Shown in pieces: positions 3,268 to 35,153 of a DNA stretch of 64,000 nt (the stretch's first letter is position 1; each line of letters starts with the position of its first letter). The DNA is taken from assembly GCA_028532985.1 (NCBI GenBank), contig JANCIK010000012.1, positions 2,604,001-2,668,000 of the forward strand. The letters run 5' to 3'. The notes beneath the pieces are model-generated. The model made no database searches. It had not been told where the DNA came from and saw only the letters and a program-made list of their open reading frames with translations. This DNA is from Stropharia rugosoannulata. Lineage: Eukaryota; Basidiomycota; Agaricomycetes; Agaricales; Strophariaceae. The translations under genes were made by a program, and so were the position numbers.

Positions 3268-4475
3268 TGACAGGGCTGCTTTTTGGCTACGGGTGTAAAC
3301 AGTCAGAAGGTCCGTTAGTGGAATAGCTGCGCGCGGGAAAACACAGAGGGACTAGAGTGAAGCCTGACTCGTAGTCTATAGCTATCAGCGCGCTTTATGA
3401 CTACAAGCGCCTGCGCGCACCGTATTGCGAGAGGGATCGGTCAGCGAGCTGCACAGTCTAAAGTGCATAGTCTGGTCATCCGTGCGAGCGATAGAAGAGG
3501 CGTAGAACGGTTAAGCACCAGCGAAGTGCGGTGTGAGTACAGCTGAGCGAGTACCAAGGGCGGTGTGAAGGGCTGTGCGCGCATCTCATGTGCGCGCATC
3601 GCGAAGGCAGAATTTGCCTAAGTCCACACATCATGTGACCGTGGCGGCGCGCATCAAAAGACGCGCAAAAGCCCGAGGGAACGAACGACATGCGCGCAGC
3701 GAATGCCAAGGGGCTGTAACACTAGAGGGAAGCCCGGATGCGATGCGCGGACCTTTGGTCGCGCGTTGCTAGTATTTACTTCACCATATCATTAGTACAC
3801 ATGCGCGCATCGCATATAAACCTGTATCCTTGTCTATAGTAATTTAAGCAATTGTCTACCCACTAGATCTGTGTGCTGGGTTCTGTCCCAGGCCGTCGGC
3901 GGGCTGTGTTTAGCTTTTGTTAGGGTTTTAACTGTGAAGTATTTGTGAATCATAGGAGTTTTGGATAGCTTCTGGCCACCGGGTCAATTGGAGAGCTCAG
4001 TGAGGAGTCAGTACAACCGTGTACGGAAACTCGCACTGTAGTGTTTAGACTGTGAGACTGCACCACCGGGTGAAAGACTTTGGAGAGTCTTGGATTGTTG
4101 GACTTTTGGAGAGTCCACGCATCATACGAGGTCACCGGACCCGGAAGTGCGCGCAGCGGCGTTCGCTAAAACAACTTATTTCATTTATCATTTTGCCTAG
4201 CGCACGCCACTAGCAACCGGGCTCTATCCGAGATTTACTAGAATTAAACCCCTCCTTACAAACGAACTTGCAGGCACTACTTGCTATTACAAAGACTAGA
4301 GGACACGAGGTGCGCGCATCGCACACCCAGACCGGGAACCAGAGCAGAGCAAAGATTATACTAGCCGTTTAGTTGAGGGCGTTCGCTCGATCTAAAGGAT
4401 AGGATCTCGCTCCGCTGGGTGGGTGTGTGTGTTGTGTTTCGCGATTTCGAGTCTAGCCACGCAGTAGACCTCTCA
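3268..4475 (+). repeat. 5' LTR of element A
   Basis: It begins TGACAG and ends CTCTCA (TG...CA with near-perfect 6 bp inverted ends). Length is 1208 bp. It matches 33943-35153 except for one 3 bp indel and one substitution. A TATAAA at 3815-3820, about 545 bp in, is the likely U3 promoter element and sits directly beside a GCGCGCATCGCA motif. I count about eight such GCGCGCA-type motifs in this LTR. Small ORFs within it are not convincing as genes. Confidence 0.97.
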
Positions 4476-4477
4476 TC

Positions 4478-4495
4478 TGGAGCCCACCGCGAGGG
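4478..4495 (+). other. Primer-binding site of element A
   Basis: Two bases after the 5' LTR the sequence reads TGGAGCCCACCGCGAGGG, starting with TGG as expected for pairing to a tRNA CCA end. The identical sequence occupies the same place in element B (15711). I could not assign the tRNA from memory. Confidence 0.75.
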
Positions 4496-4659
4496 GAAGG
4501 TTCAGAAATCTCAATTAGTGTTTCGGGAACTACGGCTTGCGCCTATTACAATAAATTACAAAAATTTCAAATAAAACGGGGACGAGTAACAAGCGAGGCA
4601 AATTTCCTGCGCCTTCATCGCTCGCCGAGCCAGAAGAAGCCAGACCATCCTTTGGAACG

Positions 4660-6612
4660 GTGCCTTCACGCGAGAGAACCACGAGGAGCAAGAAAAACGC
4701 TGAGCTGGTAGAGCCGTTGGTAATTACACCGACGCGAGACAGAAAAGCAAAGAAAAGAGCGAGGGAGGAAGCGCAGTTGCAGATCGAGACTCAGGGATTA
4801 GCGCAGCGCATCCCAGGTGCGCTCACCGAAAGCGACTCGGAATTAAGAGTAGGGACTAGTGGATTTTGGGGACCACCATCTGGCATTGAATCAGAAGACC
4901 AATTAGTGGACGGTGATATTACACTTGAAACCGCACCATTCGGTACTTCTGATAGCCAAGCTACCCAAGACACCCCTCCTCCATTCTCGGAAGTATTTGG
5001 GACTGCTAAGACATCCGCGCAGCGCACGGCGGAAAATAGCGAAAGTGAGGCAGAGCGCGTAGCGAGAGATATATTTGAAGGAGACTTGTCAGATCTTTCA
5101 GAAAGCGAACGGAATTCACCCCCACGAAAACCAGAAACTATGCCTAAGGATATGTCCATGCCAGTACGCGGTGTGCGCGGCGCGCCGAGCTTCGATCCTG
5201 CTGCAGAGCGCGATGAGCTGCCGCGGTACTTCGAGGACCTGGAGGATTGGTTTAAGTGCGCGGAGGTGACGGAGGACGATGAGAAGAGAGGATATGTAAT
5301 CAAATATGTACCCATGCAGACGGCGGAGGAGTGGAAGAATTTACCAGGTTATGATACCAAGGGGTACGCGGAGCTCAAGAAAATGATTCTCAACGAGTAC
5401 CCGGAGGTGATCAGCATTCAGACAGGGTCCATTGCGCGGCTCAAGAAGCTCTGCAAGGAGAATCAGCGCATCTCGGAGGAAGACCTCCAGGTGTTGCTGG
5501 ACTTCAAGCGCGCGTTCTTGGCCGAGGCTGCTAAGCTCACGAAAGCGCCTACCCTGCTCGCGAATCATACCTTGGTGACTTACTTCACCAATAGTCTCAC
5601 TGCAGGGTTCAGGGATCGTCTGTTTAATAAACTGGACATTGATTACACGACGCGCGCATCGTTCGACAAGTTCTTGACTGAGCGCAATATACAGTTCACC
5701 GCACCTACTGGGGTGACGGTAGAAGCGCGCACCGAGGACATGTACCCTCTCAAACAAGTAGCCGAGATGGCGGAACAAATGGCCCGTACCAAGAACCCAA
5801 GCACTACGCTGAGCCTAGGGCGCGATAGCACTGATGGACTTATGCCGGTGCCCGCCATCAAGACTGAGGCCGCGGATGTTGGTTCGCTGCGCGGAGAGAT
5901 TGAGGACCTGAAAGGGTTCGTCGCCTCCTTCAAGGATACCTTGTCGCTAGTGGAGAAGACAGTGGCGAAGTCAAAGGAGTCGAGTAAGAAAGAGTTGGAG
6001 GACATTATCCGCAATGTCATGGCTGCGCGCGCCGCACCGATGTCGGTGCCTGTGCAACCAGTAGCCCCCATGATGCCCATGAGCGCACCGAGTTTTGGTG
6101 GACCGCCACCTAGGCCCTTCCAATACCAACAACGCCTGGAGCCTCGCTGCTTCTACTGCAAGCAGACGGGACATGTGGTGGCTGAGTGCATCGTACGGCA
6201 GCAAGACTTGTCAGCGGGGAGGATTGTCATCACAGAGGCGGGGCGCTTACAGCTACCTGACGGGTCATCGATACCTTGGGACCCTTCGCGCGCGATTAAA
6301 GAGCGCGTCGACGAATGGCATAAGAAGAACAGGCAGCCCGTGCAGCAAGCGTATATGGCACCCGTCCATCCCCCGTACATGAGTATGCCTCCTAGCATGG
6401 TATACTCGCAGATGTACCAACCGGCCAGTTCCTTGGACGAGACCTATGAGGAGCAGATACGCGCACTTCAGCAAGAGCTGGAGAGTAAGAAGGCGTTCCT
6501 GAAGGAGCACGCATCGGCGAAGACGCCTGAGGAAGTGATAGAGGAACAGCGTCAGTTAATAGCGACTATGAAAGCCGAACGCGACGCTGCGCTCAGTCAG
6601 GGTTTCGATTGA
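4660..6612 (+). CDS. gag: Gag polyprotein of element A
   Basis: Structural protein expected to form the virus-like particle. The frame is open from about 4551 to the TGA at 6610-6612. It has a charged, Pro/Ser-rich N-terminal region, a capsid-like region at roughly residues 180-340 of the listed frame (containing YFTNSLTAGFRDRLF), and a CCHC zinc knuckle CFYCKQTGHVVAEC at about residues 497-510, followed by a coiled-coil-like Gln/Glu-rich tail. The listed start (GTG at 4660) is only a boundary: there is no ATG in frame before 5140, yet the 160 codons upstream of 5140 are conserved with element B. Initiation is therefore either at a non-AUG codon, through a spliced leader, or at 5140. Confidence 0.85.
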   Translation: MPSRERTTRSKKNAELVEPLVITPTRDRKAKKRAREEAQLQIETQGLAQRIPGALTESDSELRVGTSGFWGPPSGIESEDQLVDGDITLETAPFGTSDSQATQDTPPPFSEVFGTAKTSAQRTAENSESEAERVARDIFEGDLSDLSESERNSPPRKPETMPKDMSMPVRGVRGAPSFDPAAERDELPRYFEDLEDWFKCAEVTEDDEKRGYVIKYVPMQTAEEWKNLPGYDTKGYAELKKMILNEYPEVISIQTGSIARLKKLCKENQRISEEDLQVLLDFKRAFLAEAAKLTKAPTLLANHTLVTYFTNSLTAGFRDRLFNKLDIDYTTRASFDKFLTERNIQFTAPTGVTVEARTEDMYPLKQVAEMAEQMARTKNPSTTLSLGRDSTDGLMPVPAIKTEAADVGSLRGEIEDLKGFVASFKDTLSLVEKTVAKSKESSKKELEDIIRNVMAARAAPMSVPVQPVAPMMPMSAPSFGGPPPRPFQYQQRLEPRCFYCKQTGHVVAECIVRQQDLSAGRIVITEAGRLQLPDGSSIPWDPSRAIKERVDEWHKKNRQPVQQAYMAPVHPPYMSMPPSMVYSQMYQPASSLDETYEEQIRALQQELESKKAFLKEHASAKTPEEVIEEQRQLIATMKAERDAALSQGFD

Positions 6613-6617
6613 GTCTG

Positions 6618-7887
6618 ATGAAGGGAAACGCGGGCAGAGTTATGCGTAGCGGCTCTGATAAACCCAAGATCCTGGAGGGCGCAAATAAGAAGTTACCAAT
6701 CAGAAATATACCCAGAGCATCAGTTGAGGACGCGAGTGATGATGAGGAAGATGAGTTACGAGAAGTAGTGGAGGAGCAAGGTGCGCGCAGCGCACCAGTA
6801 AAGAAGAAAGTAGTGTTCGAGGTTCCTGCAAAGGCTGGGCCTAGTGCACGACCAGCAGCAGTGCCATATGTAATGGTACCTCCGCTGCGCGTTCCGGAGA
6901 AAGTAAAACCTAAGGTTAGGGAAGAACCCATACCGGTAGTAGAGAAGAGGAAACCTGCTTATAAGCTGCGCGCACCTATCGAAGATGAGGCGCAGGCTGA
7001 CGCAGTCCTCAAGCACTTAGAAAATCAGAAAATTGAGATCACGCAGGGCCAGTTGTTAGGCATCTCGACTGCAGGCTTTAGAAGAAAATTCGTTGAGCGC
7101 ATAGTACCAAGAAAAGGTACCATTGGATTTGAATACGATGCGCGTATTACAACTAGACTACGATGAAGAAGAGCGTGAAGTAGATGAGGCTATCGCGCGG
7201 TTAGCAGGGGAAGAAGAGGAAGAGGAGTTTATGCAGATGGACGAGCTACCAGTGGCCACTTTCCTTACTTGCTCAGATGAGCGCAGCGGACTGCAACCGG
7301 GGACCATCATCATGGAAGACCTGTACGAGCAGTACGTCTCGACTCTGCAGCCAGGCGAAAAGCCTAAGGGACTTATTGTGGCGCGCGAATCGCACCATCT
7401 GAAGGCGGTATTTCCGCTCATCAACGGCAAGGGACACGCAGAGACGTTGCTCGACAGTGGGTCGCAGATTGTGTCAATGGCACAGGACACCGCTGAGCGC
7501 TTAGGACTTAGTTGGGACCCGGACTTCACTATACGAATGCAGAGCGCGAATAAGCAGGTGGAATCCACCAAGGGTTTAGCGCGCAATGTACCGTTTGTGT
7601 TTAACGGGCTGACAGTGTATTTACAAGTACATGTCATCAGCGCAGCGGCTTATGAGGTACTCTTGGGCAGGCCGTTCGAGATCCTCACGGAGAGCAATGT
7701 CAAGACGCGCGGTGATGGAACGGTTGAGCTTACACTCACCGATCCCAACACACAGCGCAAATTGGTCGTACCCACCTATAACCGAGGGTGCGGTCCCAAG
7801 ATTGTGCAGCGCGAACCTAAGTTGCAGGACCCTGGCACGATGGAAAACCCTAACGCAGATCAGGATTTTCAATCCTCGATGATTTGA
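6618..7887 (+). pseudogene. Protease ORF (ORF2) of element A, frameshifted
   Basis: Second sense cistron. Its ATG (6618) lies 5 nt after the gag stop (TGAgtctgATG), and the same junction is present in element B, suggesting termination-reinitiation. The product has a basic, disordered start and a retroviral-type aspartic protease with the active-site triad Asp-Ser-Gly in TLLDSGSQIVSMAQ (Asp codon 7453-7455). Compared with B there is one extra base in the A-rich run at about 7110-7115, which moves the protease domain out of frame with the start. The ORF ends with TGA 7885-7887, whose last base is the first base of the next ATG (TGATG). Confidence 0.8.
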
Positions 7888-10800
7888 TGCGTCAAGGAGA
7901 GGTCGCATTGATGTTTGACAGAGATGATCGCACGGGGAAAATAGAGATAGCGGGGTACGCGCTACCAAAGAATAAGAAGCGGTTTGGGAGCGCTGAGCTC
8001 AGGGATGTATACATGGCTCAAGCAGTACATGAGGCAAAGATGGAGGATGATGAGAAAGAAAGAATATACAAGTATTTTCAGCAGCGCGAATGGCGCAAAG
8101 AGGAAGTAGTCAAAGGAGAGCCTAGGGGGCAGTTCCGCGCATCGCACGAGGAACAGGTCCCTAGTAAGAGACAAGGAGTAACGCGTAAGCGCTTGACTGG
8201 CAAGAATGCCACAACCGTTACGGTGCTCGCAGGAAAGAAGTATAAGCCAGTGGCTGAGAAAGTCAGGCCTGTCTATCAAGATTTACCAGAGAAGTTTAGA
8301 ATAGTGAGGGAGATAAAAGGAGACCCACTAAAGGACATGCCGCAATTGTCACCACATCCGCCAGACTTCGTACCTACAGGTCGGTACACCGCTGAGCGCA
8401 TGGAGGGAATTGACAAGGCGCATGAAGGGGATTTCCTGTGGTCCGAGGAGCGCAAGTTGGTGCATCAAGTTTTCATGCAGCAGAACGAGGCGTTCGCGTG
8501 GGATGACACAGAGAAGGGTAGATTCCGTACGGACTTCTTCCCTCCAGTAGACATTCCCACTGTAGAACACACGCCTTGGGTATTGAAGAACATTCCAATA
8601 CCACCTGGGATGTATGAGCGCGTATGTGAATTCATCGCCACCAAGATTCGCGCAGGCACGTATGAGCCCTCGAGCTCATCGTACCGGTCGCGCTGGTTTA
8701 CAGTGACTAAGAAAGATGGGGTCTCGTTCAGAATTGTGCACAGTCTCGAACCGTTAAATGCGGTAACCATTGCACATTCAGGACTGCCTCCAGCAGCGGA
8801 GAGTCTAGCGGAACACTTTGCGGGGCGCGCATGTGGCGGCATCCTGGACTTGTATGTTGGGTACGATGAGCGGCTGTTAGCTGAGTCCTCTAGAGACCTG
8901 ACTACATTCCAGACGCCGTTCGGTGCGCTGCGCTTAGTAACCCTACCTATGGGATGGACGAACTCCGTGCCCATCTTTCATGAGGATGTCGCATATATAT
9001 TACGCGATGAAATACCTGAAGTTACAGAACCCTATATAGACGATGTACCTATTAGGGGACCTAAAACGCTACGAGTTAGAAGGAGGAGGATATGAGACGA
9101 TACCAGAGAATAAGGGAATAAGGAGATTTGTATGGGAACACATGTTGAATGTCAACAGAATCGTGCAGCGCATGAAGTACTCAGGAGGAACATTTAGTGG
9201 AAAGAAGTCCATACTGTGCGCGGCTGAGATAGTAGTGGTGGGGCACTTGTGTACATACGAAGGACGAAAGCCAGCACCTGATAAAGTGCATGCGATCCTC
9301 AATTGGGGGCCATGCAAGAACATCAGTGATGTGCGCGCATTCATGGGTACAATGGGTCTGCTACGGATTTACATCTCGGATTACGCGAAGCGCGCAGAGC
9401 ACATACAGCGGCTGTTGCGTGGGAAAGAACCCTTTGAGTGGGGGCCCGCTCAGCAAGCTAGCATGGACTCGCTGAAAGACGGTGCGCGCAACGCACATTG
9501 CGTGAAACCACTGGACTACACATTGCCAGGGCCGATTACTTTGGCTGTTGACACATCGTGGCGAGCAGTAGGGTTCTATATTTATCAGCAGGACCCACAA
9601 GATTCGAAGAAGAGGGTATATACGCGCTTCGGATCAATACTGTTAACGGAACGCGAGCAGCGCTTCTCACAGCCCAAACGGGAGTTGTATGGACTCTTAC
9701 GGGCGCTACAAGCCTGTTATTACTGGCTTATCGGTGCGCGCAAGCTGGTGGTGGAAACGGATGCCAAATACTTGAAGGGCATGTTGGATAATCCGGGCAT
9801 GGGCCCTAATGCGACTATTAATCGCTGGATAGATAAAATACTTATGTATCATTTCCAGTTGAAACATGTTGCGGGCAAAACCTTTGGTGCGGATGGTTTA
9901 TCACGTAGGGAAGGGCAATTGGGAGATGAGGCGTACGCGCACTCTGAAGAAGATGATGATCAAGAGGTAGGACCGCTCGAATATGAGAAAGTCTATGAAG
10001 AGGACCCGGATCCCCTGGACTTTGAGGAGTTCAAAGAACAGATTGACGATCGCGGCAGGTATCTATACACAGGACTACTCAACGAGTTGTTTGAAGGTCC
10101 CACCGCGCGCAAGTTGCCAGAAGCGCGCTCTATAGGCTGTTTCCAGCAGGAGCTCGAGCGCGCACGGGAAGAGACGGAAGCGGAAAAGCGGGCCGTGCGG
10201 GACTTCATACAGAAAGAGAGTGTACCGCTCGTGCAGCGCGAGTACTTAGAGAAATTCATACTAGCGCACGCCATACCCGACTCCAGAATAGAGGATCTGG
10301 AGGATGAGGAGTACGATGAGCGCAACAGGACGTCTGCAGGAAAAGATATGGATGAGAAATTGCCGATGATACGCTACTGGTTGCAGAATCCAACCACTAG
10401 GCCTAAAGGCATGACGGAGCGAGAATATCAGAACTTTACGAGGAATGCTCGTAACTTCTTCTTAGACAAGGATGGGCGGATGTACCGGAGATCCATAGAT
10501 GACGCGCATAAGTTGGTGATAGATCAGGTGCAGCGGACACGCATGCTGCGCTCAGCACATGACAGCTTGGGGCACAGGGGAGCGTACGCTACGCGCAAAC
10601 TGCTAGCCGAGCGCTTCTGGTGGCCTGAGTTGGAAAGGGATGTCTACTGGTATGTGAAAACATGTCATGTCTGTCAGTTAAGGCAGAAGACGATCATTCA
10701 GATCCCGCGCACCGAGACACACACGCCGTCTATCTTCCAGCAACTACACGCGGACACTATGCACATGTCCCCGGCCTCCAATGGATATAATTACATAGTG

Positions 10801-11820
10801 CACGGAAGATGTGCGCTAAGCTCATGGGCGGAAGGGCGGCCGTTAAAGAAAGAGAATGCCCGTGCGATAGCGCAGTGGATATTCGAGGACATTATCTGCC
10901 GTTGGGGCTGTCTACAAGAAATCATCACAGATAACGGTGGACCGTTCCGCGCAGCGCTCAAGTATTTAGAAAAGAAGTATGGGATTACAGGGATTACTAT
11001 CTCCGCGTACAACTCGCAAGCGAATGGAAAAATAGAGCGTCCTCATTGGGACATAAGACAGATGTTGTGGAAAGCGTGTGGAGGGACAGAAGGCGCGCAT
11101 AAGCGTTGGAGTAGATTCTTCTACCATGTGTTGTGGGCGGATCGTATCACTGTGCGACGAGGATTTGGGTGTTCCCCATTCTTCATGGTAACGGGCGCGC
11201 ACCCCATACTACCATTCGACATAGCAGAAGCGACTTGGTTGGTGAAACTACCAGATCGCGTGCTGACTACGGAGGAGTTAGTAGGGTATCGCGCGCGCGC
11301 ACTAGCCAAACATCGCGACACAGTAGAGGAGATGCACGCACGAGTATCAAAGACGAAAAGAGATGTGATCAGGGCATTTGAAAAGAAGCACTCGGCTAAA
11401 ATCCGTGACTATGTGTTTAAGCCAGGAGATGTAGTGCTAATGAGGAACTCGGGCATAGAATCCAGTCTGAACCGTAAGATGCTCGCACGGTGGAACGGGC
11501 CTTACATCATTATCGCACGAAAAGATGGTGGAGCGTACTTAGTGGCAGAGATGGATGGCTCTGTGTTGAAGGATAAGGTGGCGGCGTTCCGCCTCATTCC
11601 TTACTTTGCACGGAGGCAGCTGCGCTTACCGGACGGTTTGGATGATATAATTGATCAGACCAAGGAGAACCTAGCTAAAATGTTAGAGGCGCCGGACTAT
11701 GAGCCAGCTATTCCCAAAGATTATATCTTTGATGAACCCGGTGTACCCTCGGGTAGCGGTGCGCTTACAGTAGAAGAGGATGAAGAAGATGATGATGACT
11801 GGGGCGAAGAAGACACTTAG
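7887..11820 (+). pseudogene. pol: RT-RNaseH-integrase ORF (ORF3) of element A, frameshifted
   Basis: Third sense cistron, starting at the ATG of the TGATG overlap. Reverse transcriptase motifs include FRIVHSLEPLN, TTFQTPFGALRLVTLPMGW and the catalytic YIDD (9033-9044). About 20 nt later, near 9061-9068, two bases present in B are missing, so the frame shifts directly after the RT active site. Downstream, in the shifted frame (9043-11820), are RNase H (AVDTSW, KRELYGLL, VETDA), the HHCC integrase zinc finger (HDSLGH ... CHVC), the DDE integrase core (LHADTM, ITDNGGPF, ANGKIERPH) and a GPY/F-like C-terminal module, ending in an acidic tail. The copy cannot make a continuous ORF3 protein unless the frameshift is a sequencing error. 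Confidence 0.88.
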
Positions 11821-11945: not shown

Positions 11946-13263
11946 CTACTGGGCTGGTTTGTCCTCGGTGGCAGTAACGCCAGTAACGTCGAGGCTGCGC
12001 TGCAAGATGACAAGCTGCTCGACGAGGAGCGCGCGGCGCTTGAGGATGAAGTCGACCTTGTGGAGATCACAAATGATCTCTGCTTGTAAATCACCAATGA
12101 GGCGGCGCGTCACCAACTCGGAAGGGTTACCCGTATTAAGGGGCTCCTTAAGGAGGTTAGCGGCGGCATCAAGACAAGCATTGACCTTGTCATTGTCCAA
12201 AACGAGAGAAGTGCCTGAGGGAGAAAGGTTAGAAAAGATTAGTAAGAGAATGGTGCGGTGCACGCACCTTGCATAATAAAAGGAGAGTCGGGGAACGTAG
12301 GAACGCCCTCTGAGCCCAGCCTGGCTTTCTTAGGAGAGGCTTCACCTGCGGCGGCGTCACGGAATGAGCGACGAAGCTCGGTCTGACGATAAGTCATGCC
12401 TCGACCAAGGGGACGAGAGCAGTAACCAGGAGTGTCTCCGCGCTCGCGCTGGTATTTCTATAAGAATCTAAGTGCGCGCAGCGGAGACGGGTCAAACACA
12501 CACCTGTTTAGGAGTATCAGGAGGCGCGGCGCGCTTCTTGTTAGGGCTCGGTTCGGGTGTATGCTGCCTACTGGGAGGACCTCCCTCAGTCGCGGCTTCA
12601 ACTTTATCGTCAAGAGCCATCTTTTTGAGGAGCATGTAAAGTTGCATGTTAGTGATGTCTGGCAAAGAAACCAAGGTTAGCCACACCTTGTCATCGTCAG
12701 AGTCAGGAGATGTAGTACCTCCAGGCGCGGAGGCGGTCTCAAGGTCCGCAGTTGCGGAACGCGTAAGAACGCGAACATTGCGCTGCGCGCACCAAAAAGG
12801 GAGATTAAGTCTAGAAATGGTTAGGGAAGGAAGATGAACATACCGGTCCAGTAGGGGTATGGGTGCGCTGACGAGAAGCGGCAGCCTTGGCCTTGAGGAC
12901 TTGTTCATGCAAGTTGATAAATGCATTGGCGGCAGGGGAGAAGGAGCGAATGTGGTGGTCAGCCTCGAGCGACGTATATATGGCGCGAGTCTCATTAAGG
13001 ATCTCGATAGCTTCATTGTTGTTTATAACGCGAGTGATACCGCCGTGCGCGTCGCGCCAGCGGTTCTGCAATCGTGCCAGACGAAGTCAGTAACATACAA
13101 CAAGGGAATCGCGCGATGCGCGCACCAAATCGACAGCAAGCAGCTCCAGGCTGCCGGTGTAATTCGCAGGAGTGGCAGAGGCCAACCCACGAATGTCCTG
13201 GATCAGTGAGAGTTGATGCTTGACATTGGTGAAGTTAAACAGAGGAGCATGAGTAGTAGCCAT
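11946..13263 (-). CDS. X1, antisense spliced gene of element A
   Basis: Unrecognised protein encoded tail-to-tail with pol. The ATG is at 13263 (MATTHAPLFNFTNVKHQ...). Exon 1 is 13263-13126, followed by a 60 bp GT-AG intron (13125-13066), then exon 2 from 13065 (NRWRDAHGGITRVINNNEA). Further exons carry LPDITNMQLYMLLKKMALDD, a PSPNKKRAAPPDTPKQ basic stretch that may be a nuclear signal, SPKKARLGSEGVPTFPDSPF and a final helical exon with NDKVNACLDAAANLLKEPLN and LVTRRLIGDLQAEIICDLHK. The last exon ends at 11946. The counterpart in B (23172-24485) has the same exon order and intron placement, with conserved protein and diverged introns, which argues for a maintained gene. A TATATAA-like box lies at about 13325 on the minus strand. 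No known domain was recognised. Confidence 0.75.
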
Positions 13264-13792: not shown

Positions 13793-14311
13793 TCAGCGCA
13801 GCGCACGAGGAGAAAGACCCACAGGAAAGAATTCTTCCTGGTAAAAGACCTGGGCGGCATAGTGGAGTTGTTGGAAGTGTTCAGAGTGAGGGAGGGTGCC
13901 GTAGCGCTCAGCATCAGTAGTACCACACAAGCGCAGGACGAGCTCGCTATAGTGAAGCTGAGCGCACAAGTGCGATATGCGAGGCGAGTGACAGGTAGCT
14001 TCGGTCAGCGCCAAAGCCCGCTACAAGGACGTCAGAGCCGCGCACGAAAAGGCTGGAGAATGGGGACATGCGCGCACCGCATGGTCTTGAACATGACGCA
14101 TCATGTCTAGGCAGATGGTCATGGGAAGCAGCGGTTCAGTCGCAGCCTCAAGGATAAAATGAAGGGCGCCTATGTAGATGCGGCAGACGCGCTCATGATC
14201 ATCGAGAGGAATATCAGCTAGCGCCCGCTTGGGTAGAGCAGCTAAGCGCAAGAAGGAAGGATCGGACCTTGCGCGTTGAAGGAGATTACTTTCGGTATCG
14301 AAGGAGGGCAT
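13793..14311 (-). CDS. X2, antisense spliced gene of element A
   Basis: Small unrecognised protein of about 150 residues. Exon 1 starts with ATG at 14311 (MPSFDTESNLLQRARSDP) and runs through HERVCRIYIGALHFIL to QDHA. A GT-AG intron beginning gtgcgcgcatg separates exon 2 (RALALTEATCHSP, HLCAQLHYSELVLRLCG, SEHFQQLHYAAQVFYQEEFFPV), with a stop at 13793. The B homologue (24939-25483) has the same structure and strongly similar protein up to FFPV, after which the tails differ. Element B inserted 5 bp upstream of this ATG (14316/14317), moving the presumed promoter to 30287-30352. Confidence 0.72.
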
Positions 14312-14312
14312 G

Positions 14313-15708: not shown

Positions 15709-15710
15709 TC

Positions 15711-17843: not shown

Positions 17844-17848
17844 GTCTG

Positions 17849-24485: not shown

Positions 24486-24938
24486 TAGTAGCTGAGTGAT
24501 TCAAAGTAGGAGAGTAGGGCATATATATAGGCTCAGCGGAGCGCAGAGGACCTAATGAGGGGCGGCCAGCGGCGAGGAATGTGGCATCCCAGCGGACCAG
24601 ACTCCCAGCGGAGTTATGGTATGAACGCTGGAGGTAGAGACAGACCACCACATGCACGCTCGCATAAAACGGGGTGCAGAGCGGGAGCAGTTGATAGACG
24701 AAATGAGATCCAGCGGAGAGGCGCGCCTAGCTGAAAGCGCTCAGCGGAGGCTGATCGTGTGATTACCGCATATGGAAAAATTATGTCCGAATCAGGTATT
24801 GGCACCGACAATACATAGTGCCTAACTAGATACTTGTCATTTCAAATAGCAAAGGAGGCACCACATGTAATAGCCATTTACTCTGGTTACTGTAACAAGG
24901 GTACCCTACGGAGTAAACCAAGGAAGGGGCGCAATACC

Positions 24939-25483
24939 TCAAACATCCTGACATAATCTTGGTCTCAGCGCAGCGGGGAAGGAAGAGAAAAGGGGACAGA
25001 CGGGGAAGAAGTCCTCCTGGTAGAAATGCTGGGCGGCGTAATGGAGGCGTTGAAAGTGTTCGGTGTGATTAAGAACGCCGTAGCGCTCAGCGTCGTTGGT
25101 ACCACACAGACGAAGCACAAGTTCGGTGTAATACAGCTGAGCGCAGAGATGAGAAAGAAGCGGTGAATGACAGGTGGACTCGGTCAGCTCTAGGCCGCGC
25201 TGCGCGGACTACTCAGTGGGAGTGCATGGACCGTGGAGAAGGGGCTTACAGCATGATCTTGAACTCGGTTAAGCAGCGGGAGGCAGACACTCATGGGTAG
25301 CTGTTCCTCTGCAGCGGAGTCCAGAATATAGTGAAGGGCAGTTATATAGATTCGGCATACTCGGGCTACATCGTGAGGAGGAATGTCGCTTAGCGGACGA
25401 CGGGACAAAGCATCGAGACGAAGGATGCGAGGATCGGAATGGGCACGTAATAAGAGATTACTCTCAGCGGACAAGGAGGGCAT
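24939..25483 (-). CDS. X2, antisense spliced gene of element B
   Basis: Homologue of X2 in A. Exon 1 starts at 25483 (MPSLSAESNLLLRAHSDP) and ends at QDHA. A short GT-AG intron ends in ccgcgcag. Exon 2 begins RGLELTESTCHSP and contains HLCAQLYYTELVLRLCGTND and HYAAQHFYQEDFFPV, then a tail unrelated to A, with the stop at 24939-24941. Both sides of the intron are conserved in protein, while the intron itself is not. A minus-strand TATA-like stretch lies at about 25515-25530. No known domain recognised. Confidence 0.72.
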
Positions 25484-25552
25484 GTTGGCGTATAGGAATA
25501 CAGACAGAGGGAGTTATATTATATACGTAGATGGTCAGCGCAGCGGACTACC

Positions 25553-26024
25553 CTAATCAGAGCACACATCGTCTACGATGAGCGCGGCATCAGGGTCCAC
25601 TTCTTGAACATCGGCTGCAATTCGTTCAGAAGAAGGCAACAGATGGAATGGCATGCCCAGATGACTGTATCGGTCGAGAACGCGTAAGGCGGCGTTACTG
25701 AGTAGGCGCGGGTCGAAGTGATCATCGCTGAATGTCCGCTGAGCGCGGGCCTCGTAAAACACGATGGTCATGAGGAACGCCTGAAATTGGCGATTAAAGT
25801 CAACGAATCTCAGCGGGAGGGTAATACGATCCTGTGGAAATAGTCAGCGGAGTAGAATTTATAGAAGTAGGCCTTACCAGAGCACGGACAACAGCCTGCG
25901 CGGACTGCAACGACAAATGGAGCGTGGTCTCAGCGGAGTCTTCTGTGAGCTCAACATGGACAGCCAGCTGCTTGAGGATGGAGGTGAACTGGCGGGCGAC
26001 ATTGGTGCGCTGGTAGCGTTGCAT
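25553..26024 (-). CDS. X3, antisense spliced gene of element B
   Basis: Unrecognised protein of about 140 residues. The ATG is at 26024 (MQRYQRTNVARQFTSIL). Exon 1 runs to QSAQAVVRAL; a GT-AG intron begins gtaaggcc and ends ttccacag. Exon 2 begins DRITLPLRFVDFNRQFQAFL and contains MTIVFYEARAQRTFSDDHFD, NAALRVLDRYSHLGMPFH and an acidic end (DPDAALIVDDVCSD). It aligns over its whole length with X3 of element A. Its promoter region is the hairpin and polypurine module at 26059-26096, which on the minus strand contains CACTATAAAA. Confidence 0.74.
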
Positions 26025-26058
26025 GACTAAAGGAAGAAGAAGAAGAATAAAGAGCCTA

Positions 26059-26096
26059 TCAACTGAGGACAGTTGATTTTATAGTGAGGGGGAGAG
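26059..26096. promoter_or_regulatory. Internal hairpin, TATA and polypurine module of element B
   Basis: TCAACTG-AGGA-CAGTTGA forms a perfect 7 bp hairpin. It is followed by TTTTATAGTGAGGGGGAGAGA. On the minus strand this gives CCCCCTCACTATAAAA about 60 nt before the X3 ATG. The same arrangement sits directly before the 3' LTR, so this may also be an internal (central) polypurine tract. Confidence 0.6.
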
Positions 26097-26452
26097 AGCC
26101 CGCAAAAATATGGCCGCGGAGCACGTGTGGGGAAAAGAAGTCCGCTGAGCGGACCTAAGAAAAAGAGAAAGATAGCAGAAGAGAGTCAGCTGTAGGAGAA
26201 CCCGGCCAACAGCTAGGACACCTCCTCAGAGGTCTGCAGGTTGCTCAGCGGGGCGGAGTCTATGGCTAAGGACTTGAGAAGTTGCAAAGTCACACAAAAG
26301 AAGACAGAGCAAAGGAGGCATATTTGATTATAGCAAGATCTAATTTACTTTACATATGCCAGATAAAGTAATACAGAGCAGGAGAACAAGAAATGTAGAA
26401 AAGAGAAATAAAGGCCCCAAGGCCTGACAACCAGCGGAGCGCGCGACATCCC

Positions 26453-28456
26453 TCAATCCCCCTCCGCGGGAACCTCGGCGGCGTCTACCTCGCTAGGGAC
26501 GCGCGAAGGAGTCAGGAAAGTGCGAGCCACAGCGGGGGCCTTGCCCTTGGAAGTGGTGGTTAAGGGCTCGAGGCGCGAAGTACTGGCGGAGGGAGTGGCG
26601 GGAAGAGAGCTGTCCGCGGGAGTCCCTCTCTTGGACGAACGATCGCGCGAGCGTTTGACCTTCTCCGCTGCGATGATAGCATCGGCCTCTTCAGCTTGGC
26701 GGAGGGCCGCGTCCTCGAAAGCTTGAGATTCGGCCGCATTGAAGGCCTCTAGAGTGATGGCCTGGTCAGGCTGGGGGGCAGGGATGAAGGTGGTAGGATC
26801 GAAGCGCGGATGCTTTGGATCGTAGAAAGAGGCGGCGGGGGCAACGATAAGGGGGTCTTCCACGACAGCGGGGGCACAAAGAGAGGCGTAGGCCTCGTGG
26901 AGTCGATCGAGGTCGAGGCAGCGGAGAGCGTCGAAGGTTTCGCAATCACGGAAGCGCGGGCCAACAATGATCCCAGTGGGAAGGGTGAGCGCCATGGCGC
27001 GCGCCAGCTGGGAAAGTTCAATGAGTTGACCAAAGAACATGCGCTCCGCGGAGCGGCGCTGCTCTTCAGCCACGCGAGCTTGCTCTGTATAGGCGCTGAG
27101 GCGAGCGAAGCCAGACAGAAGGCCTAGAAAGAAAGAAAATTACAAGTCAGAATAAGAGAAAAGAGATGGGAAATAGACTCACTGGTCAAGGAAGTGCGAT
27201 GCCACAGGGAGGAGTCCTCGATAGTCTTGTCGACCTCCGCGGGCTCACAACAAAAGAGGCATTTTCCTTTTTGCTGGGTACTGCAAGTACAGCAATTCCG
27301 CGCCCACCCGCGGCAGATGCACTGGTGAAGGCCTTCATTTATGCGAGCATTGAAAGGACGAGCGCAGTGATTGCACACCATTCCCTTCTGTGAGAAGTGG
27401 AAAACCAGTTAGTAAAAATAGAAAGGGGCGCCCAGCGGGCAGATAAGACACGCACAATAATAGCGCCTTCGAGGCGGGCCTCAGAGGGGAGCATGCTCAT
27501 GTCAATCGCGTCGGGCAGAGGAGCGCCAGCCAGGGCGAGTTTAGCGGAGAACACAGGGGGCAAGACGTCGAGAATGGGATAGGTAGACTTGTACGCGATT
27601 TTGTTGCTATCAGGGCGGGTATTGGTGATCTCTTCAATTCCGCTGTCGGTCAGGGCCAAGGTAGGACCGCCAGCGGAGCAGACGACGGAAACTACCGCTG
27701 GGGACTCGAGATCGGCTTGGGCTGGGAAGGATCAGGATAGAGGAATAAAGAAATCTAAAAGAAAAACTTACCAGCGATAGCAGCGCTGGCCGCAAGCGCA
27801 GCGGGGCGCTGGCGTTTAATTAGCTTTGGGGGCGGCGCGGGAGGAACGAAGACGACAGGAGGGGTAGGAAGACGCTTGCGTTTGTCCTTACGAACCGCGG
27901 GCGAAGGCGAAGGGGGCCGTGGAACTTCGTCGTCTGAAACCATGATAATATCCTCCGCAGCGGGAGCGGCCTGGATGGGAGGAGGGGCAGGAGAGACGAG
28001 CGGAGCGGAGGTGGAGAGGGGGCGAGGGCCTGGGGCGGAAGAGCCATCCCACTGAGTAGGGAAGGCGGTAGCAAAGAAATGAACGTAGGAGGACAGGGGC
28101 TGGTGACCACTCGTGAACCAGCGACGCGCTTGCAGCGTCGGGGCCAGGGAGGGGTCGTTGGCGATAAGCATGTTGGCCACAGCGGAGAGGAGGATGCAAA
28201 ATTCGCGGACCCCGTTGTGGTAGAGGCCGTCAGAGCAATGAAAGCTCAGGTGGTCCTCGACAGCGTTGTCGATGTCCACCGGCTCGTCTAACCGCGCCAT
28301 TCCGTCGTCAGGCAAGTTGTCGGCACCAGCCAACGTTTCGAACTCTTGATAAACCATGAGCGCGGGGCGGAGGCGGCGGAAGCGGTCTTGAGCGTCTAAA
28401 AGGGCCTCAGCGCGCTCTTTCTCGCGCTGGCGGCGGTCGAAATTGCGAAAAGCCAT
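26453..28456 (-). CDS. X4, antisense spliced gene of element B with six-cysteine module
   Basis: Largest cassette gene. Exon 1 runs from ATG 28456 to 27772 (MAFRNFDRRQREKERAEALL, later a Pro-rich stretch with VRKDKRKRLPTPP and PPKLIKRQRP, likely nuclear signals). Exon 2 contains YKSTYPILDVLPPVF and LALAGAPLPDAIDM. Exon 3 (about 27190-27381) carries the module C-x2-C-x14-C-x8-C-x2-C-x7-C (CNHC ... HQC ... RNCCTC ... GKC). Exon 4 contains QLIELSQLARAMALTLPTG, GPRFRDCETFDALRCLDLDR and a Lys/Arg- and Ser-rich tail ending at 26453. The Cys spacing resembles a Zn2Cys6 cluster with an enlarged first loop. Homologous exon by exon to X4 of A. Candidate DNA-binding protein; this is inference. Confidence 0.74.
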
Positions 28457-28852
28457 GTTCGGTAGACTAGAGAAGAAAGTATGCAGGGGGTCTGCAGGAG
28501 GAGAGGGGAAAGAAAGGATGAGAAGGGCCAGAGAGCAGTATCCGACGTTTATAAGACAAAGGCTCGCCCAGCGGGAGAATTTTCTGGAAGATAAAAGTAC
28601 GGGGTGGCGGCGTCACATAAACTTTCAGGCGACCTACATAGAGAGCGGGGGTTTAGAAGCAGCGGCACAAGGCTGAAAAAGGGAAAGAATATCCTTAAAC
28701 AGAGAGAGAAACGGATAACAATGAAAGTGGACATCGGAGACGACCGAGAAGCTAAAGATAGGCAAATAGGCGCTGGGGAAAGCTGAAAATAGAAAATGAG
28801 GCGCTAAAAGTAGACGCGGGGACAGTACTGAGTCTAAAAATACAGGCGGATC
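28457..28852. other. X4 upstream region of element B
   Basis: About 400 bp between the X4 start and the pre-LTR hairpin. No conserved ORF. It probably holds the X4 promoter; the minus strand has CACTAAAAATTTT at about 28870-28882. Confidence 0.4.
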
Positions 28853-28890
28853 TTGACTGAGGACAGTCAAAATTTTTAGTGAGGGGGAGA
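28853..28890 (+). promoter_or_regulatory. Hairpin and polypurine tract before the 3' LTR of element B
   Basis: TTGACTG-AGGA-CAGTCAA hairpin, then TTTTTAGTGAGGGGGAGA abutting the LTR at 28891. The purine run is the expected plus-strand primer. The unit is a diverged duplicate of 26059-26096. Confidence 0.75.
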
Positions 28891-30282
28891 TGACAGGCCT
28901 GCGTTTATACCAAGGCTGTAAGTGGCCACAGCGAGCGGTTTGGGCTGGAGTGCAGGGGTACAGCGGAGCGGTGATTAGCCTGATCAGTCGTCTCAGCGCT
29001 CAGCGCGTGCATCACAAATCATCACGCGTGTGCTCAGCGGGCGGTTGTGTGGGGTTCAGCGGACTGTACGGGTCATAAGTACACAGTTGGATTACCTGGA
29101 ATAGCCGTCAGCGGAGCACATAACGGTTACTGTCGTCCCAGCGGAAGGCAGGAGTACAGCTGAGCGGAAAATATTAAAGGCGACGAGCAGGACTGTGTGT
29201 AGACGGCGTCCCAAAAAGGGCTCAGCGGAACACATCACGAAGGCGAAATTTGCCTAAGTCCACTCGTCAGGTGACCGTGGCGCGCGCGCTGGAGCGTGTG
29301 ATGCCCGAGGGAATGAATAATGCACACAGCACGGACTCCGCTGGGGAACTTTGGCAGCGGTAACCAGGCCTCGATGACCAAGAAGGAACCGCCCAGCGGG
29401 GTTAAACGGCGTCTCTCGGCGGAGGCTGGCGGCGCAACGGGATCAGGTCGCGCTCAGCGGAGTAGTCATCAAAAACGCCCAGCGGAGGCACATGCGCTCA
29501 GCGGACCTTTGGTCCGGCGTTGCTAGTATTTACTCTCCACCTAAATTAGTACACAGCGCGCGTCTATATAAACTTGTAATTGTAACTACGGAAATTAAGC
29601 AATTGTCTACCCACTAGATCTGTGTGTTGGGCTCCGTCCCAGACCGTCAGCGGGCTGTGTCTAGCTTTTGTTAGGGTTTTAACTGTGAAGTGTATTGTGA
29701 ATTATAGAAGTTTTGGATAGCTTCTGGCCACCGGGTCATTTGGAGAGCTCAGCGGGGAGTCAGTGCAACCGTGTACGAAAACTCGCGCTGTAGTGTTTTG
29801 AGATTTGAGACTGCACCACCGGGTGAACGAGGTTCTGGATAGCCTCAGCGGAATAGGACTTTGGATAGTCAGCGGAGCGAGGCACAATTGGGAATACCAG
29901 CTTGTGTGAGCATCTGCATCGGTCACCGGACCTCAAACCCACTCAGCGGAATAAGCCCCGCGGAGCCACCATCAAAACTATACATTACTATCGATACCCT
30001 GCGCTCAGCGGAGGTCGCCCAGACATTAATCTGAGACTTCTAGAATTAAACCCCTCCTTAAAAAACGAACTTGCAGGCACTGTACAGCGGACATCTGGAC
30101 TGAACTTACGAGACTCTTAAACATCACAGTCGCTCAGCGGAGAGGACCAGGAAAAGCGTAGACATCTATATTCCGCTTAGCTGAAGAGCGTCGCTCGATC
30201 TAGGGGATAGGATCTCGCTCCGCTGGGGTTGTGTGTGTTGTGTTTCTTGTGATTCGAGTCTAGCCCCGCGGCAGACCTCTCA
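28891..30282 (+). repeat. 3' LTR of element B
   Basis: 1392 bp copy of the 5' LTR. It is preceded by hairpin and polypurine tract and followed by target duplication ACGA, after which element A sequence (promoter region of X2 and then X3) resumes. Confidence 0.97.
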
Positions 30283-30352: not shown

Positions 30353-30833
30353 TCAATTGTAGCTAATATCATCTACTACAAGGGCAGCGTCGGGATCTGT
30401 GTCTAGAATGGCGGTCCCTGTTGGTTCCGAGGGTGGGAGATTGTGAAAAGGCATGCCAAGATGGCTGTACCGATCGAGAATGTGAAGAGCGGCGTTGCTG
30501 AGCATGCACACATCGAAATGATCATCGCTGAATCTGCGCTGAGCGCGGCCTTCGTAAAACACGATCGTCATGACTAAAGACAGGAATTGGCGATTGAAAT
30601 CGATAAAGCGCAAAGGCAGTGTAATGCGATCCTGGAGGAAAACGTCAGCAGAAGAAGCGCTTGCATGAACATAAGGACTTTACCAGTGCGCGCACGAGGG
30701 ATTGAGCAGACTGTAGAGGAAAGTGAAAAGGGCCGTTGTCGCAGTCCCCTGCGAGCTCCGCATGAACGGCGAGTTGTCTCAGTAAAACAGTGAATTGGCG
30801 AGCAACAGCGGTGCGCTGATATCGGAGAGCCAT
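30353..30833 (-). CDS. X3, antisense spliced gene of element A
   Basis: Homologue of X3 in B. The ATG is at 30833 (MALRYQRTAVARQFTVLLRQ). Exon 1 ends at QSAQSLVRAL; a GT-AG intron begins gtaaagtcc and ends tcctccag. Exon 2 begins DRITLPLRFIDFNRQF and contains MTIVFYEGRAQRRFSDDHFD and NAALHILDRYSHLGMPFH, ending in DAALVVDDISYN at 30353. The intron falls at the same codon as in B. Function unknown. Confidence 0.74.
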
Positions 30834-31227: not shown

Positions 31228-33332
31228 TTAGGCCTCCATGTGAACGACATCTTCTTCCTCAGCGGAGGCCTCAGGGCTCGAGTCGTTAACAACAACGGGA
31301 GAGGACTTGTAGGAACGGATGGGAGCTTTGCCTTTTCCTTTGCCTTTACCCTTGCCTTTGGACGTCGACTTCGGGACTTTGGAAGCCTTAGAAGGCTGGG
31401 GGGCAGGGACAAAGGAAGAAGGATCTTGACGCGGATGGTCGGGACGGTAGAAAGAAGAGGACGGCGGCGCGGACTCGATAGGGTGATCGGGATCCAATGG
31501 TTGGCAGAGCGCATCATAGGAAGCGCAGAGCTGTTCGAGGTCCATGGATCGAAGGGCGTCGAATGTCTCGCAGTCAGTGAAGCGAGAACCAATAATAACA
31601 TTAGTTGGCAGAGTCACTGCCATAGCCTGCGCAAGCTGCACAAGCTGGATGAGTTCGGCGAAGTAGAGGCGCTGAAGGCCTCGACGGGACTCTTCCGCGG
31701 CGCGCGCCTGCTGACCATAGGCCTCGAGACGGGCGAAGGAAGCTTGAAGCTCTGAAAAGAAGAGAAAGTCAGTAAAGTAGAAAGAAAAGATAAAAGATGC
31801 GCGCACCACGGGGGGAGGTGCGATACCAGCCAGAAGTCCCTTCTAGTGCGCTGTCAAGCTCAGCGCCGGTCATGGTATGGAGACAGGGACCTTGGCCCCC
31901 TAGGCGGCAACTCGCGCATTTCCGACCAGGACCGCGAAGGATACAAAAGTGTTTGAGGGAAGGAGTGGAAGAGGATTCGCCCTGAGGGCGCCCGCAAAGC
32001 GAGCAAGTAAACCCGGGCTAAAGAAAGAAGTAATTAAACAAAATTTCGAAAGAGGAGAAAATAAAATGAAAAGACGAACGATGATGGCTTCGCGCAGCGC
32101 CTCCTCAGGTGGGAGTTGGGCCATGCTTATGGCGTCGGGTAAAGGGGCGCCAGCCAGTGCCAGGGACGCATGGTAGACGCCAGGCAGGAGATTGTAAATG
32201 GGGTAGGTTGAGCGGTACTGGGATTTGGAAGCATCGACGCCCTTCAGGCGTGGAAGCTCCTCGAGGCCGCTGGGAATGGCCTCTACGGGGACGACCTTGG
32301 TATGCGATGCGCGCACCTTAGGAACGGCCGGAGAGGCGCGTACGGTGGAAGGCCCCGCTACAGCCTCCTGGGTCGCTAAATAAAATAAAAATAATAAGGG
32401 CGTCAAACAAATGGTATAAGCTGGTAAAAGCAGAATGCCTTACCAGTACTAGCGGCCTTGCGCGTGCGTTTAACAAGGGGGATCACCAGGACTGGCAAAG
32501 TCGAGATAGGGACGAGCGCGGCGCGCTTGCGCTTGGAGGGCGCAGCAGGCGCGGAATCGTCAAGGCGAGGAGATACGGGGTCTGGGGATGGAGGAGGAGG
32601 AGTCGGTGAAGGCGAGGCGCGCTTGCGTTTTGCAGGCACGGCGGGAGTGGGCTCGGTGGGCGCAGGGTCTGGAGAAGGAGGGGGTGGAGTTGACGAAGGT
32701 GAGGCATGCCTCTCTTCGACGGGAGGCGCAGGGATGGTCTCCATAACTGTCCTGCTTCCAGAGGGCTCGCCCATCGCTACGTCGGGCCCAGTCGACGCCA
32801 AGGGCACGCATTGAAGACGAGGCTCAGGCTCGTCTCCAGGAACCCAGAGCGGAAGGAAGGCGGTGGCGAAAGCCCCCTGGTACGAGAGAAGCTAGGGAAC
32901 GAGAAGCGCGCATCGAATGTAAGCGGGGTGAAGAAGAAAAATGAAGAAAGAAAAAGGGGGCACCGGTTCGTGAGTGGGCTCTGAGTACCACACTGCCCGC
33001 CTAGGGGGGTCCTGTGAGTCCCAACCGAAGGAGGCGTTGCTATCGTTCAGGCTCAGAATAGAAAGAATAAGGGCAAGTTCCCGAATGCCAGCATGATGGG
33101 AAAGGTCCTGAGGAAAAGCTAGGACATGCGCTGTGAGACCCGCGCCCAGGGCGTCCCGATAGCTGTTGAAAAGCGACGCTTGGGCAGCGTCAAGAGAGTC
33201 AAGGTCGCCTAAGTCTTCGAGCGCGGCGAAATTGGTAAGGGCTGGGCGCAGGCGGTGGAAACGGTCCACGCCATCGCGTTCGCGATCCTCGGTGCGCTGC
33301 GCGATAAACGAAAAAGCCTTTCTGAAGCCCAT
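31228..33332 (-). CDS. X4, antisense spliced gene of element A with six-cysteine module
   Basis: Homologue of X4 in B. The ATG is at 33332 (MGFRKAFSFIAQRTEDRERD). Exon 1 contains DRFHRLRPALTNF and GIRELALILSIL; an intron present here but not obvious in B follows THEP. The next exon (GAFATAFLPLWVP) leads to a Pro/Ser-rich region with three AKRKRA/SKRKRA basic clusters. A later exon has YRSTYPIYNLLPGVY and LALAGAPLPDAISM. The module C-x2-C-x16-C-x8-C-x2-C-x7-C (CSLC ... HFC ... RKCASC ... GPC, about 31880-32015) follows. The final exon has ELIQLVQLAQAMAVTLPTN, GSRFTDCETFDALRSMDLEQ, a GKGKGKGKGKAP basic run and an acidic end. Family-specific GCGCGCA motifs fall mainly in its introns and spacers. 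Confidence 0.74.
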
Positions 33333-33905
33333 GAACGTCTTGTGGTCCAGTTTTGGAGAAGTGTGGAAAAACAGTAGGGATTTGGAGAAGGAAGCGAGAG
33401 AAAGAAAGGACGGGAAGGGCAGAGGAACTTGTTATATACCCAGGAGAGAATAGTGAAGGAAAATTCTGGAGCATGAGAGAAGCTGAACGGCGATGAGCGC
33501 ATGTCGAATAAACTTACCGGCGACATACTAGAATAGCGTGTAGTAAAAAGGAAGAACTAGCAGGGCCCAGAAAAGGAAAGGGCAAGGCTTGATCAGGAAG
33601 GTGACTCGAGAAGGGATGTAGGCTGGCCCGAAATAGTAATAATGGGACCATTAGGAGTAAGGGATTAGAAAACAAGCGATAGGCGCGGTGCGCGCGGAAG
33701 AAGGGTTGGTCTAAAACAAGTCTAGTTCGGTAGAGGCCCAGTAAGGAGTGTCCGAGGGGGGGAAATCAGGGCGCCGAATAGAGATAGGATGTAGGAAGAA
33801 GGGGGGGGCACTGGGTAAGCCACAGACGGCAGTAACTAAGCCAGGACACAGTAGGATGGGGAAAATAGTGGACTGCTACTATAGAAGCGATGCGCGCATC
33901 TGAAG
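33333..33905. other. X4 upstream region of element A
   Basis: About 570 bp of non-coding element sequence between the X4 start and the pre-LTR hairpin. It contains GCGCGCA-type motifs (about 33690 and 33890). Small ORFs here have no equivalent in B. Confidence 0.4.
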
Positions 33906-33942
33906 TTGACTGGGGACAGTCAAGATTTTAGTGGGGGGGAGA
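33906..33942 (+). promoter_or_regulatory. Hairpin and polypurine tract before the 3' LTR of element A
   Basis: TTGACTG-GGGA-CAGTCAA hairpin followed by TTTTAGTGGGGGGGAGA, which abuts the LTR. It is the expected plus-strand primer site and probably also the X4 promoter region on the minus strand. Confidence 0.75.
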
Positions 33943-35153
33943 TGACAGGGCTGCTTTTTGGCTACGGGTGTAAACAGTCAGAAGGTCCGTTAGTGGAATA
34001 GCTGCGCGCGGGAAAACACAGAGGGACTAGAGTGAAGCCTGACTCGTAGTCTATAGCTATCAGCGCGCTTTATGACTACAAGCGCCTGCGCGCACCGTAT
34101 TGCGAGAGGGATCGGTCAGCGAGCTGCACAGTCTAAAGTGCATAGTCTGGTCATCCGTGCGAGCGATAGAAGAGGCGTAGAACGGTTAAGCACCAGCGAA
34201 GTGCGGTGTGAGTACAGCTGAGCGAGTACCAAGGGCGGTGTGAAGGGCTGTGCGCGCATCTCATGTGCGCGCATCGCGAAGGCAGAATTTGCCTAAGTCC
34301 ACACATCATGTGACCGTGGCGGCGCGCATCAAAAGACGCGCAAAAGCCCGAGGGAACGAACGACATGCGCGCAGCGAATGCCAAGGGGCTGTAACACTAG
34401 AGGGAAGCCCGGATGCGATGCGCGGACCTTTGGTCGCGCGTTGCTAGTATTTACTTCACCATATCATTAGTACACATGCGCGCATCGCATATAAACCTGT
34501 ATCCTTGTCTATAGTAATTTAAGCAATTGTCTACCCACTAGATCTGTGTGCTGGGTTCTGTCCCAGGCCGTCGGCGGGCTGTGTTTAGCTTTTGTTAGGG
34601 TTTTAACTGTGAAGTATTTGTGAATCATAGGAGTTTTGGATAGCTTCTGGCCACCGGGTCAATTGGAGAGCTCAGTGAGGAGTCAGTACAACCGTGTACG
34701 GAAACTCGCACTGTAGTGTTTAGACTGTGAGACTGCACCACCGGGTGAAAGACTTTGGAGAGTCTTGGATTGTTGGACTTTTGGAGAGTCCACGCATCAT
34801 ACGAGGTCACCGGACCCGGAAGTGCGCGCAGCGAAGCCGTTCGCTAAAACAACTTATTTCATTTATCATTTTGCCTAGCGCACGCCACTAGCAACCGGGC
34901 TCTATCCGAGATTTACTAGAATTAAACCCCTCCTTACAAACGAACTTGCAGGCACTACTTGCTATTACAAAGACTAGAGGACACGAGGTGCGCGCATCGC
35001 ACACCCAGACCGGGAACCAGAGCAGAGCAAAGATTATACTAGCCGTTTAGTTGAGGGCGTTCGCTCGATCTAAAGGATAGGATCTCGCTCCGCTGGGTGT
35101 GTGTGTGTGTTGTGTTTCGCGATTTCGAGTCTAGCCACGCAGTAGACCTCTCA
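33943..35153 (+). repeat. 3' LTR of element A
   Basis: 1211 bp copy of the 5' LTR. It is preceded directly by the polypurine tract and followed by the target duplication CCGT (35154-35157), after which the interrupted TPR-CHAT exon resumes. Confidence 0.97.

Follow-up and report, generated by a model that had tools for sequence, protein, structure and literature searches.

In the VANDAL (MuDR) transposons of Arabidopsis, each of the related families carries a different short motif that is bound by the element-encoded anti-silencing protein VANC (PMC5735166, PMC10398659). In the part of these accounts used here, the motifs sit within tandem repeats of non-coding sequence, and probes from coding regions did not contain them (PMC5735166, PMC10398659). 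Among the fungi, DNA transposons carry TET/JBP dioxygenases, none of which, as far as the consulted part of the report goes, was found in retrotransposons (PMC12730594), and the LTR retrotransposons of bdelloid rotifers have additional ORFs (PMC5408684). In the literature that we searched, we found no account of short words dispersed through a retrotransposon family, or of an antisense gene block, such as those described below.

The window analyzed here is a stretch of 64,000 nucleotides from Stropharia rugosoannulata. It contains two Ty3/Gypsy LTR retrotransposons of the same lineage, both on the plus strand, which were delimited by their LTR pairs, Pfam domains and word counts: element A (3268..35153; word TGCGCGCA) is split by element B (14317..30282; word TCAGCGGA), which is nested within it. 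The two LTRs of A (3268-4475 and 33943-35153) are 99.7% identical and those of B (14317-15708 and 28891-30282) 99.9% identical, and the insertion sites are flanked by the 4-bp repeats CCGT (A) and ACGA (B). The gag-PR-pol frames of A extend over 4555..11820 (+), with gag at 4555-6612, PR at 7105-7887 and pol, in this copy, in two frames at 7854-9095 and 9040-11820; in other A-clade copies, the pol corresponding to 7854-11820 is a single frame of 1322 aa. Those of B extend over 15774..23051 (+), in frames at 15774-17843, 17681-18931 and 19011-23051. The order of gag knuckle, protease, RT/RNase H and integrase zinc domain fits Ty3/Gypsy. Pfam placed the protease, the RT-RNase H and the integrase zinc domain above its cut-off and the CCHC knuckle under it (18 and 18.9 against 20.8 bits), and for the frames tested it did not report RVT_1. 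Element A appears to have landed in a host TPR-CHAT gene and divided it, since an array of 135-bp TPR-like repeats (982-3257) ends 10 bp before A and a CHAT domain (36147-36971) lies beyond it; a second TPR-CHAT pair is found at 60656-63092 (-). The window also has tandem repeats with a unit of about 10 bp, in which CACTGACC occurs on either strand (37326-38017), and two minus-strand frames, of 776 aa (47608-49938) and 485 aa (41361-42818), that are long and have no Pfam match.

The original prediction, made from the letters of the window, held that each of these related elements is filled with a word of its own, and both the counts and the dinucleotide shuffles bear it out. The enriched unit of A is an 8-bp palindrome, TGCGCGCA, which occurs 31 times in A (both LTRs included), never in B and never elsewhere in the window; with one LTR counted it occurs 24 times, against 0.50 (maximum 3) in 200 dinucleotide shuffles. 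The longer form first proposed, “dozens” of words like TGCGCGCA(T/G)CGCA, has to be shortened to this palindrome, as the exact 13-mer is found just 6 times on the plus strand. In B the enriched unit is TCAGCGGA, with the core AGCGG. Read as the word or its complement (TCAGCGGA/TCCGCTGA), it is present 40 times in B with one LTR, against 0.77 (maximum 4) in 200 such shuffles, and CAGCGGA and TCCGCTG together number 91 in B, 8 in A and 4 elsewhere in the window. As was also foreseen, the words lie on both strands and in LTRs, coding sequence, introns and spacers, the LTRs being densest. The 5' LTR of A (3268..4475, +) has 9 sites or 7.5 per kb, against 2.2 in gag-pol. The word-richest part of B is its 5' LTR (14317..15708, +), with 19 sites or 13.7 per kb; the density is 5.9 in gag-pol and, with approximate exon limits, 4.0 in the antisense exons and 6.3 in introns and spacers. 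In host DNA (35154-64000) the density is 0.14 sites per kb for the A word and 0.17 for the B word, and the gag-pol of A also contains 7 B-word sites (0.96 per kb). Genome-wide, GCTCAGCGGA, the core of the B word with its flank, occurs 789 times versus 80 for a reversed control pattern, and most of the first 100 places listed cluster in B copies. The B words of five A-clade slices (L007, L009, L011, L016, L018) are nearly all situated within B-clade insertions that are 92-96% alike to B, and the remaining ones of L007 are in an overlapping B copy.

The excess persists where the encoded protein is held constant. In 400 codon-preserving shuffles, using each family's own word and frames that overlap slightly, B has 12 words in gag versus 1.8, 7 in the PR frame versus 1.2 and 24 in pol versus 3.8. 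The excess is weaker in A, with 9 versus 2.2 in pol ORF3 and 3 versus 0.9 in gag, and small counts in ORF1 (1 versus 0.3) and ORF2 (1 versus 0.1). In B gag, B pol and A ORF3, the words fall in each of the three reading frames. The residues of B at its words match those of A less well than the average residue does: 68% against 85% in gag (P 0.0165, circular shifts), 67% against 88% for pol compared with A ORF3 (P 0.0025) and 75% against 90% for pol compared with the A-clade slice L005 (P 0.0030). This rules out that the words are conserved protein motifs; at the words of A itself, no significant drop in match was seen (P 0.15, 0.62, 0.35). Because the words exceed codon shuffles, occupy all frames and are not conserved protein motifs, these comparisons support selection on the words at the DNA level in coding regions of A, B and D (a further family, below), the DNA being preferred among the two levels, DNA or RNA, that had originally been proposed. 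The examples then quoted (SAQRT, FRASHEE/FRSADPE and the pol/X1 spacer) are present as written, but they are selected cases, and the claim that the words of A and B often occupy the same positions did not survive. Under a strict 7-mer match, one of the 24 A sites has a B site no more than 4 nt away (chance 1.2). Loose 6-mers give 22 of 77 coinciding A sites (chance 8.0), but the words of both elements contain AGCG, and AGCGG in B stands opposite 11 of the 35 AGCGCA sites of A and opposite 28 of its 106 other AGCG sites, so that no clear positional excess is left.

Four old copies (L004, L014, L016, L018) have a CpG observed/expected ratio of 0.59-0.74 with an excess of TpG/CpA, a pattern resembling that of CpG methylation followed by post-insertion decay; among young copies, the ratio is about 1.0 in A, B and C, 0.80 in D and 0.98-1.12 in the word-less groups E-H (below). 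In the eroded L004, 15 of 31 CpGs were kept in words and 169 of 348 outside them, the figure for other bases being 97%, and in four eroded A copies the words kept 28 of 56 and the other sequence 362 of 655. In young copies the CpGs of the words are kept slightly better, in A (154 of 180 versus 1929 of 2306) as in B (79 of 92 versus 848 of 1030). The equal decay excludes a protection of the words in dead copies and indicates that they are renewed in the live lineages. The CpG content itself is no sign of an escape from methylation, because the young word-less E-H are also near 1 and D is at 0.80.

Related families were collected from the same genome. Among the 101 matches listed in one pol search (276 candidates, 100 scored), there were at least 25 near full-length B-clade matches at 94-100% (the window's own counted), at least 46 A-clade matches at 84-89% with one at 81%, and at least 9 matches at 51-52% to a family C, the others being partial. 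A query with family D (94 of 325 candidates scored) gave at least 21 full-length D matches (95-100%), at least 5 at 59-61% that form group E, possibly more than one family, and the further groups F (at least 4), G (at least 2) and H (at least 2). Four families of this one Ty3/Gypsy lineage have words of their own, A, B and D clearly and C more weakly. In D, TCGGAAAC occurs 9 times versus 0.3 and TCGGAAA 16 times versus 1.7 under the shuffle null, and codon shuffles are exceeded in gag (6 versus 1.0) and pol (5 versus 0.6). The word of C has a CCCGG core: CCGGGC is found 23 times versus 5.6 in L019, and in 7.5 kb of L031, where 30 of the 42 CCCGG sites are behind pol, it is clear over the null at k 5 and 6 and marginal at 7 and 8. 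Neither L019 nor L020 passed the 7-mer null, the excess over codon shuffles in the C pol is weak (6 versus 3.3), and a dyad search did not show this word. From one 5-kb slice of each of E-H no word emerged clearly; the signals in E and G were marginal. Their pols have no clear excess of any of the four words over codon shuffles, the largest being 3 B-word sites versus 0.8 in E, and ten slices around other reverse transcriptase matches contained no dispersed word. As to whether other families in the genome each have a word of their own, as the original prediction asked, D does clearly and C less firmly, and in the slices of E-H none is clear. Nesting within the lineage was frequent among the slices examined: B in A, a D element within a C copy (L020:4447-10000) and the B-clade insertions of the five A-clade slices. 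Another A copy has an insertion of about 0.7 kb (L013:5714-6420) dense in CCCGGTA and CGGGCTA, which resemble the words of C, and L017:4601-5597 and L013:8391-9368 share some 1 kb in which AAAAGAC recurs on either strand at corresponding intervals.

Behind pol, A and B carry a block of antisense genes, which we call g1, g2, g3 and Z. In B, g1 (23172..24485, -) is a multi-exon gene read from frames with one tentative splice junction, g2 (24939..25483, -) is a partly spliced model likewise read from frames, g3 (25553..26024, -) has two exons that are fully open once spliced, and Z (26453..28456, -), the candidate reader of the word, has four exons and 608 aa, one exon (27184..27387, -) containing the cysteine cluster C-x2-C-x14-C-x8-C-x2-C-x7-C. 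The block of A consists of g1 (11946..13263, -; start set by similarity to B), g2 (13793..14311, -; from frames and flanks), g3 (30353..30833, -) and a Z of five exons, fully open once spliced (31228..33332, -), whose cluster (31811..32017, -) reads C-x2-C-x16-C-x8-C-x2-C-x7-C. B was inserted between the g2 and g3 of A (14309-14316), 5 bp from the start codon of g2. The last exon of B g1 is found at about 95 genome places, in A and B clades. Family C also has antisense genes behind pol, and one of them has a six-cysteine exon, C-x2-C-x8-C-x8-C-x2-C-x9-C, that recurs at seven other genome places, one represented by two partial matches; the six cysteines are complete in 15 of the 25 A, B and C slices scanned. 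In D, an LTR spacing of 10.6 kb and a pol frame of 1,228 aa (its end estimated) leave about 3.8 kb of room for a block. F is without one, with 7.0 kb from LTR to LTR and the 3' LTR about 0.2 kb behind pol, and G and H, in which an end-of-element frame lies within about 0.4 kb of pol, also appear by sequence to be without one. In E, an antisense ORF pair is found behind pol (L034:3175-3877), at just two places, both on the same contig and 8 kb from each other. From these layouts the block appears to be associated with the words: A, B and C have both, F has neither, and G and H look like F. E, with an antisense ORF and no clear word, counts against the association.

Compared with B, the cysteine exon of Z is 70-93% alike in three B copies and 30-41% in nine A copies, while the pols of these same copies are 96-99% and 84-88% alike; the cluster thus differs more between word groups than within them. 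Z also varies where the word is shared, for among B copies with one word the N-terminal exon is just 54-77% alike, and among A copies the cysteine exon is 57-100% alike to that of the window. Basic patches are present in both proteins (KDKRKR in B, SKRKR in A). Z has no Pfam match, Zn_clus included, and no public relative at E 0.01; its best match among solved structures (E 0.05) is a C2H2 finger, which is not a confident match, and its model, built from two sequences, has a pLDDT of 52 and no confident fold. The cysteine exon of C matched DUF3716 at E 0.07, below the Pfam cut-off. Fungal Zn2Cys6 (Gal4-type) proteins have the spacing C-x2-C-x6-C-x(5-12)-C-x2-C-x(6-8)-C and often bind CGG triplets. 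Z resembles them in having six cysteines in two CxxC-led halves, and CGG is present in three of the four words (B, C, D). It differs in the gap after the second cysteine, which is 8 in C, 14 in B and 16 in A instead of 6, in the position of the cluster in the middle of the protein, in the want of a Pfam match or confident fold and in the word of A, which is without CGG. The observed spacing, C-x2-C-x(8,14,16)-C-x8-C-x2-C-x(7-9)-C in C, B and A, departs from the Zn2Cys6 pattern.

The explanation that we prefer, though tentatively, is that the family word may be the binding site of the antisense Z of the element itself, and that this binding would keep the element expressed against host silencing. 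The antisense genes would be transcribed from their own promoters, and Z, with its basic patches, would enter the nucleus and bind the family word in the LTR and the body, so that the bound copy would remain accessible to transcription. Coding-sequence sites would extend this coverage and be worth the amino-acid changes that they cost, and a private word would spare host genes and withhold the service from related families. When families split, word and reader would change together. The expression of the antisense genes, the role of Z, the effect on silencing and the joint change are here inferred. We consider it possible, with somewhat less assurance, that all this amounts to an anti-silencing code, in which a private word of about 8 bp, spread over the whole body with its coding sequence, and an antisense cysteine-cluster protein that recognizes that word alone are rewritten together at family splits. 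A code of this kind would have no known precedent among retrotransposons.

Another account, which we judge unlikely without thinking it negligible, makes the antisense protein a transcription activator, which on binding the words would switch on the LTR and antisense promoters, the other sites serving as enhancers, with no role in silencing. The peak of word density in the LTR suits it, as do the TATA-like boxes seen by eye near words ahead of the antisense genes, but promoter action alone does not require 43 coding sites in the gag-pol of B that are paid for in amino-acid changes. A little less probable again is that one of g1, g2 or g3 is the reader and that Z is otherwise employed, for instance in a rapidly evolving partnership with host proteins. 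Within the B clade g1-g3 are more constant than Z, as a fixed word would ask, and g2 changes about as much between clades as Z does (88-98% within versus 53-62% between); against this, all three lack both a cysteine cluster and a Pfam match, and the second exon of g1 changes little between clades (83-88%).

The remaining explanations place the reader outside the antisense block, or dispense with it. The words might serve the packaging or processing of the genomic RNA and be recognized there by the Gag of the family; in favour of this, the forward word dominates in the 5' LTR of B (14 to 2) and, as CAGCGGA, overall (56 to 19). The word of A is a palindrome, however, and outside the LTR the reverse word of B is enriched as much as the forward word or about as much: 12 versus 0.33 expected from composition in gag-pol, where the forward word has 23 versus 1.09, and 5 versus 0.26 in the antisense block, where the forward word has 19 versus 1.00. 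Because the reverse-complement word in gag-pol is at least as enriched as the forward one, sites in double-stranded DNA appear to fit better than sites in RNA, and we regard the RNA explanation as improbable. We think equally little of a host DNA-binding protein as the reader, each family having adapted to its own. An element-made reader accords better with the differing words of close relatives, with the lack of a clear word in the slices of four sister families and with the rarity of the words in the host DNA of the window. Least probable is that the words are an artefact, left over from the decay of CpG elsewhere or produced by repeat expansion. All four words contain CpG and old copies do lose it, but in eroded copies the CpGs of words decay as fast as the others, word-less families retain CpG too, the words exceed codon shuffles, and a tandem-repeat search within the elements yielded just one 12-bp array.

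If the preferred reading of Z as the word's reader is correct, element-made self-recognition by private DNA words would extend beyond plant DNA transposons to retrotransposons. It would be a case of a selfish element that adapts its own coding sequence to accommodate binding sites, and up to four natural pairs of word and reader in a single genome would make the joint change of specificity and sites testable. It would also give fungal retrotransposons a way to counter silencing, in a class of elements where the cited part of the survey found no TET/JBP enzyme (PMC12730594). The fungal DNA transposons of that survey are alike in being mobile elements that may counter cytosine methylation, and differ in relying on an enzyme instead of family-specific words. 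The bdelloid LTR elements are alike in their extra genes, and words are not mentioned in the portion of their description used here. It is the VANDAL/VANC system, as far as its published description was drawn on, that is most alike: there, too, each related family has a different short motif at many places along the element and a self-made reader, for which Z is the candidate in the present case. A reader of the VANC type, which removes methylation, knows its own family by a private word and thereby spares relatives and host genes. Yet VANDALs are plant MuDR DNA transposons and the fungal families are LTR retrotransposons, the motifs of the former lie in non-coding tandem repeats and the words of the latter are dispersed, coding sequence included, and the candidate reader gene is here antisense. 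Because of the difference in element class, the dispersal of the words and their presence in coding sequence, the system of families A-D is not a member of VANDAL/VANC, which by analogy serves as its closest working model.
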